From positions 1 through 54,769 of the forward strand of contig JAACDG010000070.1 of assembly GCA_009937025.1 (NCBI GenBank): a stretch of DNA of 54,769 bases, read 5' to 3'. This stretch comes from Methanobacteriota archaeon (GTDB lineage: Archaea > Thermoplasmatota > Poseidoniia > Poseidoniales > Poseidoniaceae). Of the stretch, positions 44,371-54,769 are shown piece after piece (positions within the stretch are counted from its first letter, which is position 1; each line of letters begins with the position of its first letter). The notes under the pieces are model-generated. The model saw only the letters and a list, made by a program, of their open reading frames with translations. It was not told the origin of the DNA and searched no databases. The translations under genes were made by a program, and so were the position numbers.

Positions 44371-47300
44371 TCATCCAGTTTGACGAGAATCATAGCGTAG
44401 AGGCGATGAGTCGCCACGGATGCCGTCTTGCTCATCATCATGCACCTCGAACCAATCTACCATCCAATCACCGTCTGTATCCCAATTGGTTGGGTCCGTT
44501 CCTTCCGCAATGTGGTCATTGTCTAAATCAAGTATATACCAACCGAATTCGTGTTCCCCAACTGCTCGAACTGGAGATGTGTCGGGTGAACCAACATAGT
44601 AAATATCCCAAGCATCTGTTCTGTTACCTGCCATCAGAACTTCATCATCGCTTGAATCAAGAACAAGGAAGTTGGTATCTTTGTCGTCGACCAGGTAGGC
44701 AAAGCGTATATCATTCGCAAAGGATTTGTCCAGCTTCATGTAATTTTCAGTACTTGTGCCAGAGGAATCGATTTTCAAAAGAGCAGCTCGTAATTGCCAC
44801 CATTCCAGTACGATTTCACCATCATAAATCATGCCACTAAGGCGAACAGCATTCGGAGACGAAAGATCTGAGTCTGTAATACCATAGAATTCTTGGAAAT
44901 TCGTATATGGCTCATACACACATCCAGCACCGCTACAGTCCCAGTTTCCATCTTGGTCGGGATCGTAATTTGCATCAACCGGGTCTGCAGGATTCAAAGT
45001 AAACCAAGAGGAAGAAAAATCAGGGCGAGAAAGAATTCCACCGGCGCCTTGTTGGGATAATGGCAAACAGGAACTTGTGTCTGTAGAACAAGCGCCACCA
45101 GTCGCAGCATCAATCCAAATCACTTGAATTTGTAACAAAGAACTGTAATTATCATTTGATTCATTCCACCCTCTCGAATATTCATACCAGTCAGGCAGCA
45201 TGTCTCCATCCGAATCGTTGTCACTTGGATTGATTCCATACTTGAAAACTTCACGTCCATCTGACAAATTGAAATCTTGTTCGTGGTAGACTACCACGCC
45301 ATTGGATACAACGGTCGAATAAGACACACTGTCGCTGTCCGAATCATTTGAATCCGGACGTGTTTGATTGTCCCATTCCATCCAATTTGTGAATGGTAAA
45401 TCTCCGAGACCAGATTGAATAATTGACGAACCTGGGGAAAATACCCGGCCCGACCAAGTTCCTTGCTCGGCAGGTTGGTCGAATACTGTGCGGTCATACC
45501 AACCATCATGGTCTCCATCATAATCTACATCCCACGGATTCAATGGGTTCGCAGCCCAATGGTTGATTGTAGTTACATCTTCCATTCCATAGAGTGCAAA
45601 GCAATATTCCCAGCCATCTTCGATTCCATCAGAGTCCGAATCGACATTTGTTGGGTCAGCAATTCCGAGTAAAGTTCGATTAAAGTTGTCTTCATTGTAC
45701 TCATTAATCATCTCCATACGGTCAGCACTTGATTGACTCTTTGAAGTAAAATCAGTATAGAGCGCTTGCTGTGCTTGTTGCGGTGATAATCCGAGTTCTT
45801 CCATGTAAGCATCCATGGCATCATCTCCGAAATTGATAATTCCATCTGCAACAGGAACTGAGAAACGCTCAGTGTATTTACCATATGTGCGTGATTCCCA
45901 TTCACGTAAATTCGAGAAACGTTCATCCATAGAAATATTGCCATCACCGTCGCAGTCGAAACTATCCCCATCTGTGTCAAGGTTGACATCACTGTCGATA
46001 AGTGGGTTCATGCTCCAACGGTTTTGCTCTAAGTCCCACTCGGTAAACCAGTATTCAAACCCGTCATACATTCCATCATCATCAGTATCTGGATTGGTTG
46101 GGTCTGACATGCCAAGAAGTGTCGAAAGAATTGCATTTGGAGGAACTCCTGCCTGCCAATCGTTGAAATCACTTAACAAACGCTTACCTCGAGTTTCTTT
46201 GGTAATGAGAATATTAAACACTCGTTGAGCCTTTTCTGTTGGTTGTTGAGCATCTCCATCAATGTGCAGAAGTGGGGCATCAGAAGGATGGTCTAATCCA
46301 TTGACTGGCGCCTCGATTGCGATAGCAAACTCTTGACTATCCGTGAGACCATCGCCATCACCATCAAACCCTCCATCACCCGGTACAAGCGGGTTGAGTG
46401 TCCAAGTTTCGGCGGTCAAATTCCACGATGTGAACAATTGCTCAATTCCATCGATCATACCATCGCCATCTGTGTCAACATTATTCGGGTCCGAAGTCCA
46501 TCCCGTCAAATTTACTTGGTCAGAAGTGATGAAAGAGCCAAAAGAGAATTCAACAGTATTTCCAGGCCATTGTTGCAGGGCAAACGCAGAACCAACCGTC
46601 GTTACAAACCATTGCGGTGATGACCGGTTCTGGTCGGTTTCACTGTATTCCGGTGCGATTGCATTGTATTCCTCCCAATTGGCCATTCCGTCATCATCGG
46701 CGTCTTCCCATCGGTCTGCAGGGTCCAAAGGATTCAGAGTCCATGCATCCTCGAGAACATTCCACCGAGCAAACCAAACTTCCCAGCCATCAGGCATTCC
46801 ATCTGAATCTGAATCTGCATTCAACGGGTCTGAAGACCCGACGTCGGTCAGGGACTGAAGGGCCGTAACCGAACCAGAGGCTCGTTCTCCAAAGTTTGCT
46901 TCAGGGATTCCAAACGAGCTAACATTGATGAATAAATCAGTGGAAAATCCTTGTGGGATAGGCACACCATCGAGTGTTTGATTCCCATTAAAAAGGTCAG
47001 AACGAATGTGGAATTCAAGATAGTTTACAAAGGCTTCAGAATCTTCCAAGACTCCATTGTGATTGATATCATAACCATCACCATCGGGATTTGCAAAGAG
47101 ATCAGATGCGTTGAGTGGATTCACACCTTGCCGTGATGGGTCCCAAGTACAGGAGCCACCGGATTCCCAACCGTCCGGCAATGTATCACCATCTGAATCA
47201 ATATTATTTGGGTCTGGCTCAAACCACTCGAGACTTGAGTTAATCGTTTCACCATGTGATTCGAGCAAGAGGCCTTCGATGGCTGCACCACGGACAAGCG

Positions 47301-50124
47301 ACCATTGGTATTCACATAGATTTGCGAGACCGTCGCGGTCCGCATCCCAAAATGCGTCTTCAGCACGATTAGGGTCAAGTGTCCAATTATTTCCTCCGGT
47401 AAATGAAGAGCCAACCCAGCGACGGTGCTCAATTTCCCAACCATCGGGCATACCATCTTGGTCGCTGTCGAAATTTGTCGGGTCCGTGCCTCGGTCGTTG
47501 CTTGAAAGACCCAGATACGTGGCATTTGCTGCTTGACCTGCTGCATCATCACAAATATATTCCATTTGGACGGTATAGTGGCACCAAAGAGTTGAGTTTT
47601 CATAGAAGAAGCCGAAATATTCGTTTCCATCTCCTAAGCCATCCCCATCGCTGTCGCCGACACGAGGATTAGTGGAATTGTAACCATTTGGGGTTTGGCT
47701 GACAAATCTATATTCATCCAAATTTGTCCAAAGTCGTTCTAAAAAGCCATCACCAGATTGGTCAAGGTCGATGCCATCTCCGTCGGTATCAAAAATCGAA
47801 TCCCAAGGATCTGTTGGATCCAATCCATTGGCAACCTCCCAACCATCAGGCATTCCGTCGTTATCGGAATCATTCGCGCCTGGATTCATCAATTCAAGAT
47901 TTGCATATTGTCCTGGTGATGAACCCGTGAAGATGGTCGTATTGCCGTCGAGAGTCAAGGTTTGGAGTGCGACGATTTCACCAAATACTGCTTCCTGTTT
48001 CTGGAATCCGTATACGGCAGAATAATCGCCTGAAATAGCCCACAAGCCCTTGTCTGAACCAACGAGAATTTCATCTCCAGTTGGAAGAAGAGAATGGATG
48101 TTATTGTAGTCGCGAATATATCGGCCATCGATACCCGGATGTTCGAGTAAACCGCTGTGAGAAATTGTATTATCAACGAGGTGGAGCATATGGACGCCTG
48201 AAGGAGTTCCAAACCACAAGACCTGTGCATTGCTTGAAGTCGGCCCGTCAAGAGTCATACTCCGTACTTCAGCAGGATTCGCTACTGTTCCAAGAGAAAG
48301 TGAGCGCAATTCATCGATTGCTGTAGGAAATGGTGTTGATTCAGGAGTGTAATAAAACCTCCACGTTGGTTCAAAAGCACCACGAGCGGTCGTCGTTTCG
48401 CCAATGATCAAGCCTCTATCTGTGCCGACATACAGTGTGTTGTTCCCCCCACCTGCAGAACCATGTGCAATTCCTGTAACCTTTGCATTTGATTGACTCA
48501 AAGCGGTTTGCAGTCCAATAGCAATTTCATATTGTTGTGCAATTTGAGAAGAGGAAGAAATCTCGAATACAGAACCTTCACCGGCTTGACCTAATCCAAG
48601 AATATGTTTGTTTTGCCCTTCAATATTCAAAAGGGTGAGCGCAAAAATTTCTTCTGAAAGAGACCATGCCCATGTTTCAAGAGGACCAAGGTCGCCATCT
48701 GCTTGAAGTGGAGCAATCGCAATACCCACGTTTGTAGCAATCGCTAATGCGAAACTAGAATCTTGGATGGATAGAAGGGTTGAATCGTGTAATTCTACGC
48801 CTTGAGGCATCCAATGGTCGGAACTCGACATCTCTTCATAATTGAAAACCGTCAAACCATACCGCGTAGTAGCATAGAGCATTGAACCATCTTCATCAAG
48901 GTCGCGTATGTCATGATGAATGAGACTCATATCATCTGCTGTTGCAACAAAACTCAACGGGAAAAATTGATGTGTATTTTCTTGATTTCCAAGTGAAACC
49001 GATTTCATACCGGGCAACACAGAATTGCCATTATCCTCGTGAACAAAATATTCTTCCAATGTTGAAAGTGATTCTCCAAGGGCAAGAGCTGTCAACGTCC
49101 GACTGACGTCAGGAGATATGCCGCCATCACGGTTGGCATCCCAGCCATCCAAGTCAGGGTCAAGCAAGGCATTGGTGCGATTAAGTGGTTCAAGACCAAA
49201 ATGAACTTCCCAACCGTCAGGAATTCCATCGCCGAATGAAGGGAATAGGCGACGAATCGAAAATCCATCCCAATGGTAGCGGTCCGAATCTGCGAGCAGC
49301 GGGTCGGTTCCAAGCCAAAGGTCTTCGTCAATGACCATGGTAGCGTTTTCAGTACAAGCAGAGAGTAAATTCTCGAATGTCGCATTTGGACCGGTCGGAA
49401 TAAATGGCCAGTTCTTGAACACAGAGCCCTCTGGTAGACTTGCCGAACACCACATTCCATCCAATTCCGTCGTATGATTTAACGGCGCTCCATGAATATA
49501 TTCTTCCGGTGAGGAATAACGTTCCGTCGTCGACAAAACTCCATCTCTATTGACGTCGAAACCATCCTCGTCGGGGTCGTCATAAAGATCTGAACCATTG
49601 AGAGGGTCAAAGTTTTGGCATTCATATTTCAATGAAAAGATGTTGAAACCACCAACTCTCTCACACATGTAAGCTTCATACCCGTCAGGCATTCCATCGC
49701 CATCCGTATCTGCAATTCGAGGATCCAGGTAGCTCCGTTCACCTTCGTTGTCAACTGTGCCTGTGAGCCCACGTGGAAATCCAGGGGCTGTACAATTTGC
49801 TGGATATGGCCAACAATACTCCTCTGTAGCATTCAAACCATCACGGTCAAAATCAACAAAAGCATCCGAGGCATTGTTACTGTTCATGCCCTGCATAACA
49901 ACTGCACGACCATCAACAGAACTCCAATTCATCCATTCTTCAAAGAGGTTTTCGTGGACATCGGGAATTTTATCTCCATCGCTATCGGTGGAAGGTGGTT
50001 TAGAACCGTCAGTGGTATCTGGATGTAGATTTGATACCGATGAAACAGCCGGAAATTGTGACATAAACACTAGACTTGCAACAACTGCAAGAGTAGTTAG
50101 AAGAGTGGTTAAACTTCGACGCAT
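44371..50124 (-). CDS. Giant secreted calcium-binding repeat protein with beta-propeller
   Basis: This protein of about 1,917 residues has a signal peptide (TTLLTTLAVVASLVFMSQFPA) but no membrane span at its end, so it should be released or held by a partner. Repeats of the form DSDxDGMPDGWE, each with a following N(P/D)xDAxxDxDxDG element, occur a dozen or more times; these are thrombospondin type 3/EF-loop-like calcium sites. A beta-propeller about 370-730 interrupts them (LYATTRYGLTVFN, TLYVGTDRGLIIGE, ILVGSDKGLWAISG). The ATG at 50124 is chosen because the signal peptide starts there and the longer frame to 50325 would run into the opposite gene. Its stop overlaps the next gene's possible ATG. 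The two are likely made together. Confidence 0.82.
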   Translation of the reverse strand: MRRSLTTLLTTLAVVASLVFMSQFPAVSSVSNLHPDTTDGSKPPSTDSDGDKIPDVHENLFEEWMNWSSVDGRAVVMQGMNSNNASDAFVDFDRDGLNATEEYCWPYPANCTAPGFPRGLTGTVDNEGERSYLDPRIADTDGDGMPDGYEAYMCERVGGFNIFSLKYECQNFDPLNGSDLYDDPDEDGFDVNRDGVLSTTERYSSPEEYIHGAPLNHTTELDGMWCSASLPEGSVFKNWPFIPTGPNATFENLLSACTENATMVIDEDLWLGTDPLLADSDRYHWDGFSIRRLFPSFGDGIPDGWEVHFGLEPLNRTNALLDPDLDGWDANRDGGISPDVSRTLTALALGESLSTLEEYFVHEDNGNSVLPGMKSVSLGNQENTHQFFPLSFVATADDMSLIHHDIRDLDEDGSMLYATTRYGLTVFNYEEMSSSDHWMPQGVELHDSTLLSIQDSSFALAIATNVGIAIAPLQADGDLGPLETWAWSLSEEIFALTLLNIEGQNKHILGLGQAGEGSVFEISSSSQIAQQYEIAIGLQTALSQSNAKVTGIAHGSAGGGNNTLYVGTDRGLIIGETTTARGAFEPTWRFYYTPESTPFPTAIDELRSLSLGTVANPAEVRSMTLDGPTSSNAQVLWFGTPSGVHMLHLVDNTISHSGLLEHPGIDGRYIRDYNNIHSLLPTGDEILVGSDKGLWAISGDYSAVYGFQKQEAVFGEIVALQTLTLDGNTTIFTGSSPGQYANLELMNPGANDSDNDGMPDGWEVANGLDPTDPWDSIFDTDGDGIDLDQSGDGFLERLWTNLDEYRFVSQTPNGYNSTNPRVGDSDGDGLGDGNEYFGFFYENSTLWCHYTVQMEYICDDAAGQAANATYLGLSSNDRGTDPTNFDSDQDGMPDGWEIEHRRWVGSSFTGGNNWTLDPNRAEDAFWDADRDGLANLCEYQWSLVRGAAIEGLLLESHGETINSSLEWFEPDPNNIDSDGDTLPDGWESGGSCTWDPSRQGVNPLNASDLFANPDGDGYDINHNGVLEDSEAFVNYLEFHIRSDLFNGNQTLDGVPIPQGFSTDLFINVSSFGIPEANFGERASGSVTALQSLTDVGSSDPLNADSDSDGMPDGWEVWFARWNVLEDAWTLNPLDPADRWEDADDDGMANWEEYNAIAPEYSETDQNRSSPQWFVTTVGSAFALQQWPGNTVEFSFGSFITSDQVNLTGWTSDPNNVDTDGDGMIDGIEQLFTSWNLTAETWTLNPLVPGDGGFDGDGDGLTDSQEFAIAIEAPVNGLDHPSDAPLLHIDGDAQQPTEKAQRVFNILITKETRGKRLLSDFNDWQAGVPPNAILSTLLGMSDPTNPDTDDDGMYDGFEYWFTEWDLEQNRWSMNPLIDSDVNLDTDGDSFDCDGDGNISMDERFSNLREWESRTYGKYTERFSVPVADGIINFGDDAMDAYMEELGLSPQQAQQALYTDFTSKSQSSADRMEMINEYNEDNFNRTLLGIADPTNVDSDSDGIEDGWEYCFALYGMEDVTTINHWAANPLNPWDVDYDGDHDGWYDRTVFDQPAEQGTWSGRVFSPGSSIIQSGLGDLPFTNWMEWDNQTRPDSNDSDSDSVSYSTVVSNGVVVYHEQDFNLSDGREVFKYGINPSDNDSDGDMLPDWYEYSRGWNESNDNYSSLLQIQVIWIDAATGGACSTDTSSCLPLSQQGAGGILSRPDFSSSWFTLNPADPVDANYDPDQDGNWDCSGAGCVYEPYTNFQEFYGITDSDLSSPNAVRLSGMIYDGEIVLEWWQLRAALLKIDSSGTSTENYMKLDKSFANDIRFAYLVDDKDTNFLVLDSSDDEVLMAGNRTDAWDIYYVGSPDTSPVRAVGEHEFGWYILDLDNDHIAEGTDPTNWDTDGDWMVDWFEVHDDEQDGIRGDSSPLRYDSRQTG

Positions 50125-50357
50125 TTTGTGACCTGCCTGCAAAGCATACGCTTCGCAAGTGAGCAACCCTCTCAAGCCACTTATGAGGATGATGGAGCGA
50201 TGTTCGGACAAGTCATCATTCATTGACTGCAAAAAATCCATCCAAACCATCGAATATTGAGCGTCGAATCTTAAGAGAAAGTGGGCGAATTCAAGAATTG
50301 CAACGAAGTTATGCGGTTTCTTCAAAGGCCGCTCGCGACCGGTGGATGTTGATTGAG

Positions 50358-51176
50358 ATGGTCATGACGCTAACGCACCTTGGTACAGGCAGTCGCGGGA
50401 ACGCGACTTTGCTTGAAACCGAACATGCAAAAGTGTTGATTGACCAAGGTTTCAGCGGAGCACAACTCGAGAAAAGACTTGGACGATTGAACATTCATCC
50501 GACAGATATCGATTATATCTTCATCAGCCACCATCATGGAGACCATGGCGGCGGTGCTGCTGTCGTGCAAAAACGTTGGAAGATGAAGGTGCAAGCAAAT
50601 CATCGAACCGCAGAAGAACTCGGCTTACTTCCTGAATTGACCCATAACTTTGAATCTCTCGACATGATTCATGTTAGCCAAGACCTCGCCATCCTACCAG
50701 TCCCAGTACCCCATTCGGGAGCAGATAATGTCGCGTTCATAGCCAGCCATAACGGGGGGCGTGCCGCAGTGATAACTGACTTGGGATCTTGGACTGATGA
50801 ATTGGTCACCCACGTACGGGGTTGTGAACACATTGCCATCGAAGCAAATTATGACCATGACAGGCTAATGAATGGACCTTACCCCTACTCCCTTAAAGAC
50901 AGAATTAGCGGCCGTGGGGGACACTTGTCAAATGAACAAACGGGTAGGTTTCTTGCCCAAGTATGCACTCCCGCTACCAAGAGCATTTCATTAACCCACC
51001 TTTCAGAAAAAAATAACCAACCGCATCTCGCTGAATCAACAGTGTTGTACCATATCGATGGAATCTTTTCGGGAGACATTACAATCTCTCTCCAAGATGG
51101 TCCTGAAGACTCCCATTATATTGGCAGAACAGTACATGCAAATGATGCTGAGTTCGTTCACTCGAAGAAACAGTAA
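50358..51176 (+). CDS. Metallo-beta-lactamase-fold hydrolase (YycJ/WalJ-like)
   Basis: This protein of about 272 residues is a metal-dependent hydrolase. It begins MTLTHLGTGSRGNATLLE, the usual first strand of the family. The zinc motif SHHHGDHGGG, PVPHSGADNVAF, the acidic ITDLGSW and the final LTHLSEKNN supply the expected metal ligands. The closest recognisable relatives are YycJ/WalJ-type exonuclease-like proteins; the substrate is not deducible. In-frame ATGs at 50346, 50358 and 50364 are all near the first strand. A frame extending back to 50223 would add 45 residues unlike the family. The gene is divergent from the giant secreted protein gene; the roughly 230-base gap holds no clear promoter element that I could assign. 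Confidence 0.85.
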   Translation: MVMTLTHLGTGSRGNATLLETEHAKVLIDQGFSGAQLEKRLGRLNIHPTDIDYIFISHHHGDHGGGAAVVQKRWKMKVQANHRTAEELGLLPELTHNFESLDMIHVSQDLAILPVPVPHSGADNVAFIASHNGGRAAVITDLGSWTDELVTHVRGCEHIAIEANYDHDRLMNGPYPYSLKDRISGRGGHLSNEQTGRFLAQVCTPATKSISLTHLSEKNNQPHLAESTVLYHIDGIFSGDITISLQDGPEDSHYIGRTVHANDAEFVHSKKQ

Positions 51177-51186
51177 TTCCTCAAAT

Positions 51187-51207
51187 CACCCCCCTAAGGG
51201 GGGGGTG
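51187..51207. terminator. GC-only hairpin after the hydrolase gene
   Basis: CACCCCCC and GGGGGGTG can pair across a short TAAGG loop, giving an 8-pair stem almost wholly of G-C. It starts 10 bases after the hydrolase stop and ends 17 bases before the first pilin-like gene's ATG. There is no T-run after it. It could stop or slow transcription, protect the 3' end, or shape the pilin operon leader. Confidence 0.4.
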
Positions 51208-51224
51208 CGAGGGTCAATTGCTAA

Positions 51225-52310
51225 ATGATGCCGAAGTGTGTGCCGACTGTGAACGCACAAGCAAGCACTGTTTTGCGCCCGTCCCTCCGTCGGGACCAAA
51301 GGGCAGTAAGCGAAGTGCTTGGAGTCATCATGATGCTGGCCATGGTCATCACAATCATGGGAGGGGTTTGGGTCTTTTTGAGCCCTTATGTTTCCGATTT
51401 TGAAGACAATACAAATTGGAACAGTGCAAACGGAATTGCTGAGCGATTTCAAGACCGAATCGATGTTGCAGGAAGTGCACCAAATGGGACGGGCATTCGA
51501 CATACACTTGCTCTACAGTCGACCATGATTCAACCGATTGAAAAAGTCGAAACTTGGACGATTGCTGCTGATTTGACACCTTACGATTCGGTGGTTGTAC
51601 GTGATGTGAACAGTACGGCATTTGGTATTATGTCAATGAATGAAACTGCACGCAGCATCACGATTGAATCCGAACTGGGCATGGAAAGTTATCTCTTCGA
51701 AGCATCTCACTTAGAGGTCATCGTGAACCACACATCATCTCAGCAACATTGGCGGTCAGTTACGGTTTATGATGCGGATGGAAATGCAATTCACCGAAGC
51801 GTAACCTATCTTATCTCAGGCATTCAGATATCAACATTCTTGGGAATGGGAGAGCATGAGATTGCTTTGATGAATGACGCCCGTGTTGAACGTTTTCCGA
51901 ATGAGCCCTGGAAAGTCTCCCAATTTCCAAATATTGAAATCGATACTTTGGTCAATGGTGAACTCCGTCTTTCCTTAGTCCTTAATGATGTTCGAATTAA
52001 TGGCACACTCGGTTCGGGGAGCAGGGTCGGCATGAACATGCTTTCACTTGGCCCAATGACCTTGTTTACTGGACAAGCATACAATGTGAAATTCACAGTT
52101 GTTAACTCTCTTAATGACTTGATTACCCCTCAATACCATGACCGATTTTTGGAGGAATATACACTGAACAGGGCCTCTGGAACTTTGGATTCCTATATCG
52201 GCTATGCGCCTTACATGAGAGCAAGTGGCGCTGACGGATTTACTGTGGAAACGCAAGGGGCACAACTGTTCTTAGAAGTCGATGTTAAACGCGTGGAGGT
52301 CTCCAGATGA
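51225..52310 (+). CDS. Class III signal peptide (type IV pilin-like) protein, first of three
   Basis: The 361 residues include a prepilin-type leader. RRDQRAVSEVLGVIMMLAMV has the basic residues, the Ala cleavage site and the hydrophobic helix of archaeal pilins; the SEVLGVI core is typical of them. A beta-rich head of about 300 residues with NxS/T sequons follows. It is larger than ordinary archaeal pilins. The N-terminal leader of about 27 residues from the ATG at 51225 is somewhat long; a TTG at 51273 would give a more usual length. The next gene starts within its stop (ATGA), so the pair is coupled. It is probably processed by an archaeal prepilin peptidase. Confidence 0.82.
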   Translation: MMPKCVPTVNAQASTVLRPSLRRDQRAVSEVLGVIMMLAMVITIMGGVWVFLSPYVSDFEDNTNWNSANGIAERFQDRIDVAGSAPNGTGIRHTLALQSTMIQPIEKVETWTIAADLTPYDSVVVRDVNSTAFGIMSMNETARSITIESELGMESYLFEASHLEVIVNHTSSQQHWRSVTVYDADGNAIHRSVTYLISGIQISTFLGMGEHEIALMNDARVERFPNEPWKVSQFPNIEIDTLVNGELRLSLVLNDVRINGTLGSGSRVGMNMLSLGPMTLFTGQAYNVKFTVVNSLNDLITPQYHDRFLEEYTLNRASGTLDSYIGYAPYMRASGADGFTVETQGAQLFLEVDVKRVEVSR

Positions 52311-54517
52311 GGTCCACTTTACAGCGAGATGAACATGCAGTTTCAGCTGCTGTTGCTACTGTCCTACTGTTTGGTGGAGTTTTGTCAATCATTGCAATGA
52401 TGATGGTATCAATGATTCCGGTTATTGAAGAACTCGAAGGCTCAATCGAACGGCATGATATGTCCTCACAAATGTCTCTTCTCGCACATCAAACATCAGC
52501 ACTTAGCGAAACTGGAATGCCTGGTGATTCAACTGAAATCGAATTGATTCCAGTCGATGGCACCCTGAATTGGGACATGATGCAATCAAGCATGTGGTAT
52601 TCAGCCACATGGGCTGATGAAACGAGTTTTCGCGTGCAAGGAGCTTTGGATTATGATGATGCATTCAGTATCCGACATCCTGAATCAATGAATACTGCAG
52701 TATGTATCGATGACCTTCGACTTGGGCCAGCAAACCCATACATATTCACCATACCCGAATGGGTGGAAAGTGTGTCGATGACAGCATCGCCTGGACTTGC
52801 ACTTCCACTCGGTCCAATCGATATCGATATTTGGAATCAATCGACGAAGATTTCAGAGGTTGAACTTATGGTTGATGGAATGTTTACGTTGGACACAAGT
52901 TCTTCAGGCGAAATTGCAATCCACTCGTCTCACCAACTCCACCTACTGATTTCCACAGGTGTAGGGGGTACTGCACTTATGCAGGCAAACGATCCAAGTC
53001 CGATAGATTCCACAGGTACTTCTTGGTCCCTTCCTCTTCCAAGTGGGACCAATCAGATTCATGTTGTGAGTGAAGTGGCGAATCAAATTACGATTACGAA
53101 CCAAACATCAACTTCATACTATGCTTTGCCATCGAATCAAAACCGTGTTGGCGTCACATTCAGTCATCAACTCACACTCGACGCCACTGAAGTCGTACAT
53201 GTTACGACAAGTTCTCCTTCACGTTTGATTCTTCAAACAACCCTCGATACAGATGTTGGACAAATTGCATGGCCAAGTGTCGATGGCCAGTATCTTGGAC
53301 ATTCATTCATAGCACCGTCTCTTGAAGGTGAGGTCGTCTTCACGAACCCTGGCCAAAACAGTGTGACGGTTACATGGAGAGGTGGCGGTGTTTCTGTAGC
53401 ACCAAACCAAAGTATGGTTTTTGATTGGCCACCTGCAGATATCAACGGTGCTCCAATGCTGGATGCAAATGGCGACCTGTTTGTATCATGGAGGGCACAT
53501 ACCAATGGCTCAGGCATGCAAGTTGTTCCGGCTGATGACACTGGTGCATTATCTGGTAAAGACCATTCATTCCATGTTGATGGAATTAGTGCCAGTCAAA
53601 TTCACCTCGCACGGGCAGGAACTTCTGCTGAATGGAACATGACCGGAAGTACGATTGCCAATGGTACTCTTTTTGATGAACAAACCCAATCCACATTAGA
53701 CATCAACCAAGGTACAAGTCAAATGGAACTTGAAGCCGGTCATGCCCTACGATTGTACCATTTACGAGGCCAAGATGGTCTGATGCAAATACATCATGAT
53801 GGTGCACAACGTTGCCTGTCCATCGGTGTTCAAGCAAGCGGTTGGATTACCACGCAACTGCCATGGGAATCAATGGGTGGAAGAAGTCAAGTCGATCTGA
53901 AAAATGCTTGGAAGAGCGGCACCCACCCAGCGAGTATGCAAATTACACTCATTGGTGTTGAAGGAGCCTCTACACATGCGAATTTAGGAACTGTCTGGGG
54001 ATTCCACCTATCGAGACTCAGTTACCAATTCTCATCTTCTATCGTTGGGATGGAAGTAGCCTATGTAGGCGGTGCTGTGGTGACCAACCATCCTGAATTT
54101 GAATCATACATTGTTGTCCCACCATCAGACAGAGGTGGTCCTGGGCCGAGATTTGCCGCAACTATACCCTCACTTCATCCAACACAGAACAGCGTGAGTG
54201 GAGCAGGTTCAATGAACTTAGATATTGAATTAGTTGACCGTTCATCGCTTGCTTCTGCAACAGCATTTGAGGTTCGACGAGGATGGTCAAACCCCTATGG
54301 AGTGGCGATAGCGGATGCCTCGGCTGACGGACTGGAATCAAGTGAAGATTGGACTATTTATCCTGGGCGTATCGACTTGCTTACCGATTATGTAGGATGG
54401 GTTCCTGACCCGTCATACGCTACATCCGAAGCAGTCTGGCATACCAATGGAGAACCGATTCAATTTACCCTTCAAATGGCGGCATTGAATGCACATATGA
54501 CGGAGGCGATTTCATGA
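52307..54517 (+). CDS. Giant pilin-like protein, second of three
   Basis: The 736 residues begin with another class III leader. RDEHAVSAAVATVLLFGGVL has the basic/acidic charge cluster, the Ala cleavage site and a long hydrophobic helix. The rest is a large beta-rich, Ser/Thr-rich ectodomain with NxS/T sites (for example NQSTK, NQTS, NGSG). That is far larger than a pilus subunit and closer to a tip adhesin. It overlaps the preceding gene (ATGA at 52307-52310) and is overlapped by the next (54514-54517). The arrangement suggests a minor or tip subunit with a head for binding. The ligand is unknown. Confidence 0.8.
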   Translation: MRSTLQRDEHAVSAAVATVLLFGGVLSIIAMMMVSMIPVIEELEGSIERHDMSSQMSLLAHQTSALSETGMPGDSTEIELIPVDGTLNWDMMQSSMWYSATWADETSFRVQGALDYDDAFSIRHPESMNTAVCIDDLRLGPANPYIFTIPEWVESVSMTASPGLALPLGPIDIDIWNQSTKISEVELMVDGMFTLDTSSSGEIAIHSSHQLHLLISTGVGGTALMQANDPSPIDSTGTSWSLPLPSGTNQIHVVSEVANQITITNQTSTSYYALPSNQNRVGVTFSHQLTLDATEVVHVTTSSPSRLILQTTLDTDVGQIAWPSVDGQYLGHSFIAPSLEGEVVFTNPGQNSVTVTWRGGGVSVAPNQSMVFDWPPADINGAPMLDANGDLFVSWRAHTNGSGMQVVPADDTGALSGKDHSFHVDGISASQIHLARAGTSAEWNMTGSTIANGTLFDEQTQSTLDINQGTSQMELEAGHALRLYHLRGQDGLMQIHHDGAQRCLSIGVQASGWITTQLPWESMGGRSQVDLKNAWKSGTHPASMQITLIGVEGASTHANLGTVWGFHLSRLSYQFSSSIVGMEVAYVGGAVVTNHPEFESYIVVPPSDRGGPGPRFAATIPSLHPTQNSVSGAGSMNLDIELVDRSSLASATAFEVRRGWSNPYGVAIADASADGLESSEDWTIYPGRIDLLTDYVGWVPDPSYATSEAVWHTNGEPIQFTLQMAALNAHMTEAIS

Positions 54518-54769
54518 GATGCCATGAATTGAAGCAAGACCAACGTGCTGCAGCAACAGAATTGGGGTACATTTTTACTTTCCTTCTTGGGGTGCTGCTT
54601 CTCACAATGTTCAGTCTGTGGGCGTATGAAATTGAAACTGCAACACGTGAACGTTGGAATGAAAATGCAATTCAATCGAACATGGATGACCTCGCTGCTG
54701 CCGTGGAAAGAGCTGATGAAGCAAGTCGAATGGGTTCAGTTGATTATGCCGAAAAAGTAGTTTGGCGAC
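54514..54769 (+). CDS. Pilin-like protein, third of three, cut by window end
   Basis: An ATG overlapping the previous stop (ATGA) opens a frame that runs off the window. It starts MRCHELKQDQRAAATELGY and continues with a hydrophobic helix (IFTFLLGVLLLTMFSLWAY), a class III leader and stalk like those of the two genes upstream. An acidic helix then begins. Only 85 codons are visible. Coupling to its neighbours makes it a third subunit of one filament. Confidence 0.75.
   Translation, partial: MRCHELKQDQRAAATELGYIFTFLLGVLLLTMFSLWAYEIETATRERWNENAIQSNMDDLAAAVERADEASRMGSVDYAEKVVWR

Follow-up and report, generated by a model that had tools for sequence, protein, structure and literature searches.

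Introduction

Bacterial minor-pilin tip complexes, such as PilVWX-FimU/PilY1 and GspH-I-J-K, are encoded by small operons of several pilin-like genes, and one member has an oversized head and lacks the acidic residue near its N-terminus. In archaea, pilin sets that are encoded in trans are known (PMC4858521, PMC12448462). In the euryarchaeal 'Clade 2' pili (Haloferax PilB3/PilA; Makarova et al. 2016, PMC4858521) the ATPase and TadC genes are located apart from the pilin genes, two TadC genes and stand-alone PilA pilins are present, and a minor pilin family of variable length (arCOG02911; ~250-550 aa, all-beta) is added. The CdiP pilus of Cuniculiplasma divulgatum (Thermoplasmatales; PMC12448462) has two ATPases and split platform genes, and its pilins are encoded ~500 kb from this machinery.

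Here, we analysed a stretch of 54,769 nucleotides (the window) from a Marine Group II archaeon (Poseidoniaceae), which belongs to the same phylum as C. divulgatum. Three overlapping genes, named P1, P2 and P3, are located at the end of the window. Their products most likely make up the minor or tip part of a type IV pilus, the motor genes of which are located elsewhere in the genome; such parts are familiar, but their arrangement here is unusual. It shares with the 'Clade 2' pili the separation of pilins from ATPase and TadC, the two TadC genes and the stand-alone PilA pilins, and the additional minor-type pilins can be likened to arCOG02911 by description; unlike there, three minor-type pilins are encoded in a fixed order with overlaps and at a distance from the machine, and P2 has 736 aa. 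Two ATPases, split platform genes and pilins encoded away from this machinery are found here as in CdiP, but for the latter one major and one minor pilin and no large-headed trio were reported. The resemblance to the bacterial tip complexes is one of organisation rather than sequence, in operon size and in having one oversized member, and the likeness in the acidic residue is weak, since archaeal PilA proteins also lack it.

Results

Three overlapping genes at the end of the window

The source genome has a size of 1.88 Mb and is 83% complete; the named organisms nearest to it are Candidatus Poseidoniaceae (Marine Group II), among them Poseidonia alphae and the isolate MG-II with the chromosome record CM001443.1. 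The features of the locus are:

50358-51176, + strand: gene encoding an MBL-fold hydrolase, 272 aa (Lactamase_B_2 and Lactamase_B over cut-off)
51225-52310, + strand: P1, open reading frame of 361 aa
51225-51305, + strand: predicted class III-type leader of P1, 27 codons (alignments, conservation profile)
52307-54517, + strand: P2, open reading frame of 736 aa
52754-53836, + strand: variable insert in the head of P2, ~residues 150-510 (per-block identity)
54514-54769, + strand: 5' part of P3, 85 of ~156 aa, open at the contig end

A preliminary description of this DNA had reported three pilin-like genes at 51225-54769 that overlap by ATGA, the second encoding 736 residues. Indeed, ATGA is read at the P1/P2 and at the P2/P3 junction and the length of P2 was confirmed. 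The window is the entire contig and ends at 54769 inside P3, which is therefore truncated; in intact relatives P3 has 151-159 aa where the start is clear. Since dN (~0.07-0.12) is far below dS (1 to >2) against close relatives, P1, P2 and P3 are real genes. Of 80 contigs that were fetched independently, 74 contain the complete set in the order P1-P2-P3, nearly all with identical overlaps.

Predicted pilin-type N-termini and beta-rich heads

Cleavage was predicted between Ala27 and Val28 in P1 (R-A/V-S-E-V-L-G; mature start VSEVLGVIMMLAMV), Ala11 and Val12 in P2 (H-A/V-S-A-A-V-A-T-V-L-L-F) and Ala12 and Ala13 in P3 (R-A/A-A-T-E-L-G-Y; mature start AATELGYIFTFLLG). The classical class III motif has a strict K/R at position -2. 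This residue is present in P1 and P3 of the window and is replaced by His in P2; the genome's own Pilin_N-family pilin PilA1 is also devoid of it (DEA/VSP). Class III leaders had been claimed for all three proteins: pilin-type N-termini are predicted throughout, and the strict K/R is found only in P1 and P3.

In all three proteins, few parts are as well conserved as the hydrophobic helix that follows the leader; in contrast to this downstream segment, the leader of P1 is poorly conserved. AlphaFold2 models have a helix from residue 23 to 83 and then an all-beta head in P1 (mean pLDDT 72) and a helix from residue 9 to 69 and then a large all-beta head in P2 (mean pLDDT 82, pTM 0.82); a continuous N-terminal helix of ~60 residues with a beta-rich head is the architecture of pilins. 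Because the leader is variable, the hydrophobic segment highly conserved and the long helix continuous, the predicted N-termini of P1-P3 appear to be pilin-type rather than Sec-type.

None of the three reached the cut-off of a curated pilin profile. P1 scored just below that of Pilin_N (23.6 bits, cut-off 25.2) and the N-terminus of P2 just below that of DUF7289 (26.0 bits, cut-off 27), each through its N-terminal helix, and P3 matched DUF7266 weakly (12.1 bits, cut-off 27.6); the head of the 736-aa protein lies outside these families. The three nearest solved relatives of P1 by sequence are archaeal pilins, all of them very weak N-terminal matches; the solved archaeal PilA2 (8gi2) gave a weak N-terminal match to P1. 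The scores below cut-off, together with the missing K/R in P2, would agree with P1-P3 being ordinary Sec-exported or single-pass membrane proteins that resemble pilins incidentally; this is extremely unlikely, since the hydrophobic segment is highly conserved within a ~60-residue helix, unlike a discarded Sec h-region, and pilin-like genes of other lineages belong to pilus operons, as described below.

Residues 1-150 and 510-736 of P2 are conserved and residues ~150-510 are strongly variable. Per-block identity to the window was 0.28-0.61 within the insert, compared with 0.57-0.78 on its N-terminal side and mostly 0.60-0.87 on its C-terminal side. Two cysteines, Cys133 and Cys503, are invariant. 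The head of P2 matched no Pfam family, the P2 profile matched no PDB sequence, and Foldseek searches of the PDB with the heads of P1 and P2 gave no confident fold, only scattered unrelated beta proteins with low TM-scores. The missing acidic residue near the N-terminus was considered as a sign that P2 is a cap and set aside, as the genome's own PilA proteins lack one too.

P3 is the last gene of the set in relatives

The preliminary description placed the trio at the beginning of an operon extending past the end of the window and proposed to look for ATPase and platform genes downstream. In relatives with long enough contigs, P3 is the last gene of the set. It is abutted by a convergent gene encoding an AAA/TPR MalT-like STAND regulator (median gap 0 bp, 82 loci), beyond which genes encoding a beta-helix/Ig surface protein and a subtilase are located. 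The genome's own ATPases of pilus and archaellum, its platform proteins and its ArlH had no homologue in 1.5 Mb around 80 copies of the trio. With no ATPase or platform gene nearby and P3 in last place, the trio does not open a longer pilus operon, and a continuation past the contig end was ruled out from these relatives.

Upstream, the MBL-fold hydrolase gene is encoded on the strand of P1 in 73 of 73 scorable loci with a median gap of 45 bp. It is probably co-transcribed with the trio; the hydrolase is not itself a pilus part. A GC-rich hairpin at 51187-51210 (CACCCCCC TAA GGGGGGGGTG) lies between this gene and P1 and may represent an RNA element or serve as a terminator. The divergent neighbour at 44371-50325 (- strand), which is kept beside the trio in relatives, encodes a protein of nearly 2,000 aa with many Asp-containing repeats that by eye are thrombospondin type-3-like.

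Pilus machinery elsewhere in the genome

A search of the genome revealed three full ATPase/platform sets, which are an archaellum (contig C126), an ATPase-TadC-TadC set (C106) and an ATPase with split TadC (C34); a fourth, divergent T2SSE-family ATPase is encoded on C154. PilA-type pilins over the Pilin_N cut-off are encoded on C33 and C163. An A24-type prepilin peptidase is encoded on contig C160 of G000: PF01478 alone missed this gene, but a weak match was pursued and PF06847 identified it (37.0 bits, cut-off 29.9). The preliminary description had made its pilus reading depend on a secretion ATPase or platform gene nearby or elsewhere in the genome, and the C106 and C34 sets contain such genes, so that this refuting condition does not apply. 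Its view of the products as pilin-like and of the trio as a minor/tip-type set is supported, with secretion ATPases, platform proteins and a prepilin peptidase encoded elsewhere in the genome.

Two small overlapping pilin-like genes (L190:3196-4085; EEAQVHILEMLTLFW, DAGQMLLATGVVLL), which gave no Pfam match, close the C106 operon in a relative whose contigs are longer. In genus g7, a prepilin peptidase gene is clustered with genes encoding a pilin-like protein, KaiC-like ATPases and a PilA-type pilin (L193:8613-12482), which suggests a regulated pilus locus. Contig C107 of G000 (L197:1-11727) encodes a giant protein of >3,900 aa, ~4,500 in relatives (e.g. L191:4659-12095), which is conserved across several genera. 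At its C-terminal end, a transmembrane segment and an acidic linker lead into a complete PilA-like pilin (AVSPVIATILMVAITV), which gives the protein the look of an adhesin fused ahead of a pilin.

Similar pilin genes adjoin C106-type machines outside Poseidoniales

A P2 profile was run over 390 genomes of the phylum. Full-length P2 was restricted to Poseidoniales; nine genomes outside the order matched in the N-terminal region only, and all nine loci were read. In three genomes of a sister order of the same class, genes encoding a P1-like (347-362 aa) and a P3-like protein (~160 aa) directly precede a C106-type ATPase, which is followed by a pair of C106-type TadC genes and by two small genes that are pilin-like and resemble those at the end of the C106 operon. 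These ATPases scored 644-651 bits against C106, 188 against C34 and 236-244 against FlaI. The alignment of P1 with the P1-like protein of the sister order spanned 293 columns (E 2.5e-5, probability 75%), that of P3 with its counterpart the N-terminus only. Similarity to the operon-borne pilins of the other lineages is mostly limited to the N-terminal helix; P1 is the exception, with a weak alignment across most of the protein.

Two genomes of family f16 have a C106-type ATPase-TadC-TadC operon with a P1-like gene (597 or 1190 aa) and a P2-like gene behind it. Of the P1-like proteins, the one with 1190 aa matches Pilin_N and Laminin_G_3, a lectin domain, over cut-off, and one of the two P2-like proteins passes the DUF7289 cut-off. 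The loci with large-headed pilins in this other family of the phylum are:

L263:7628-16801: ATPase-TadC-TadC, then large-headed pilin-like proteins
L265:1-8025: ATPase-TadC-TadC, then large-headed pilin-like proteins (597 and 1190 aa in the two loci)

Two tandem ATPases are seen in L265. The remaining four of the nine loci have pilin pairs, clusters or a lone pilin, and no ATPase in the stretch read. Two lineages independently link such pilin sets to a C106-type machine, and oversized pilin heads recur in this phylum.

The trio could also be served only by the ATPase/split-TadC machine of C34 and not by C106. C34 has the same genus distribution as the trio and a PilA2 gene lies ~6 kb from it in G003 and ~5-7 kb in other genomes, but the operons of the other lineages that carry P1-, P2- or P3-like genes are C106-type by a wide score margin, and we regard service by C34 alone as improbable.

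Distribution in Poseidoniales

The distribution was surveyed in 156 genomes of the order. P2 was found in 77 of the 78 genomes of the family of the window, and the trio is fixed in Poseidoniaceae and in four genera of the sister family. In the latter, the trio, C106 and C34 are all present in g5, g7, g9 and g21. Pilin_N matches over cut-off were found in 12/12 trio-positive and in 0/8 trio-negative genomes. In an rpoB tree, one or two loss events explain presence and absence of the trio in the sister family, and genomes shrank at the same time. Co-occurrence statistics were therefore not taken as proof; since the co-occurrence of the trio with C106, C34 and PilA reflects essentially one co-loss, it does not distinguish C106 from C34.

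That the losses of the trio track the machines and PilA also bears on a surface complex without a filament, similar to a bindosome, in which the proteins would be processed by the peptidase, anchored in the membrane and held together by their pilin helices, with P2 as binding or sensing head. A stand-alone cassette without its own ATPase, the large heads, the conserved order, the upstream hydrolase and the adjoining genes for secreted proteins (subtilase, beta-helix/Ig protein) would fit such a complex. The parallel losses argue against it, as do the related genes within ATPase-TadC-TadC operons of two other lineages, and we consider it unlikely, though less so than service by C34 alone.

This genome encodes an archaellum, as do nearly all genomes of the family, and P1-P3 might be accessory archaellum subunits, e.g. 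minor archaellins. However, the genera of the sister family that have an archaellum are g4, g5, g9 and g20, so that g4 and g20 have an archaellum without the trio and g7 and g21 the trio without an archaellum. This double dissociation shows that the archaellum is not an obligatory partner of the trio, and it was rejected as such. Moreover, no match to an archaellin family over cut-off was obtained and no archaellum gene was found near the trio in the 1.5 Mb around the 80 copies, which makes a role as archaellum subunits very unlikely.

Discussion

Taken together, P1-P3 probably are a detached minor/tip pilin cassette of a type IV pilus that is assembled in trans by a C106-type machine. Against this stands that the trio lies apart from machine genes in all Poseidoniales genomes examined. 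The similarity to operon-borne pilins that is mostly limited to the N-terminal helix, the profile scores just under cut-off and the essentially single co-loss in the sister family speak against it as well. The best reading is that the trio was separated from the machine operon within Poseidoniales and that P2 was enlarged. We infer processing, assembly in trans, tip position and adhesion as follows. The precursors would insert into the membrane via their hydrophobic N-termini, and the A24-type prepilin peptidase (C160) would remove the short leaders. A C106-type PilB ATPase and two TadC platform proteins, encoded elsewhere, would then assemble P1-P3 by way of the N-terminal helices, and major pilins of the PilA type, encoded at other loci, would probably be included. 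The large variable beta head of P2 would be displayed outside, most likely at the tip, as an adhesin or cap; a tip adhesin is plausible.

Marine Group II, which have not been cultured, outnumber all other archaea in surface waters. Their adhesion has been attributed to the archaellum, thrombospondin-type proteins and flotillins (PMC6461757, PMC6336850, PMC6864105). In the papers on Marine Group II that were consulted, these three of which discuss archaella, we found no description of a type IV pilus, and literature searches gave nothing on DUF7289 or on class III peptides in Marine Group II.

The combination of trio, C106 and C34 sets, PilA genes and prepilin peptidase points to a type IV pilus in Poseidoniaceae and in early branches of the sister family. 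If this pilus exists, P2 is a concrete candidate for a surface-contact protein. It is possible, though rather doubtful, that these archaea have a full but dispersed PilA-type pilus besides the archaellum, to which the literature ascribes attachment to particles, and that this pilus, with P2 as large tip protein carrying a ~350-residue lineage-variable insert, would be their true attachment organelle for algae or particles.
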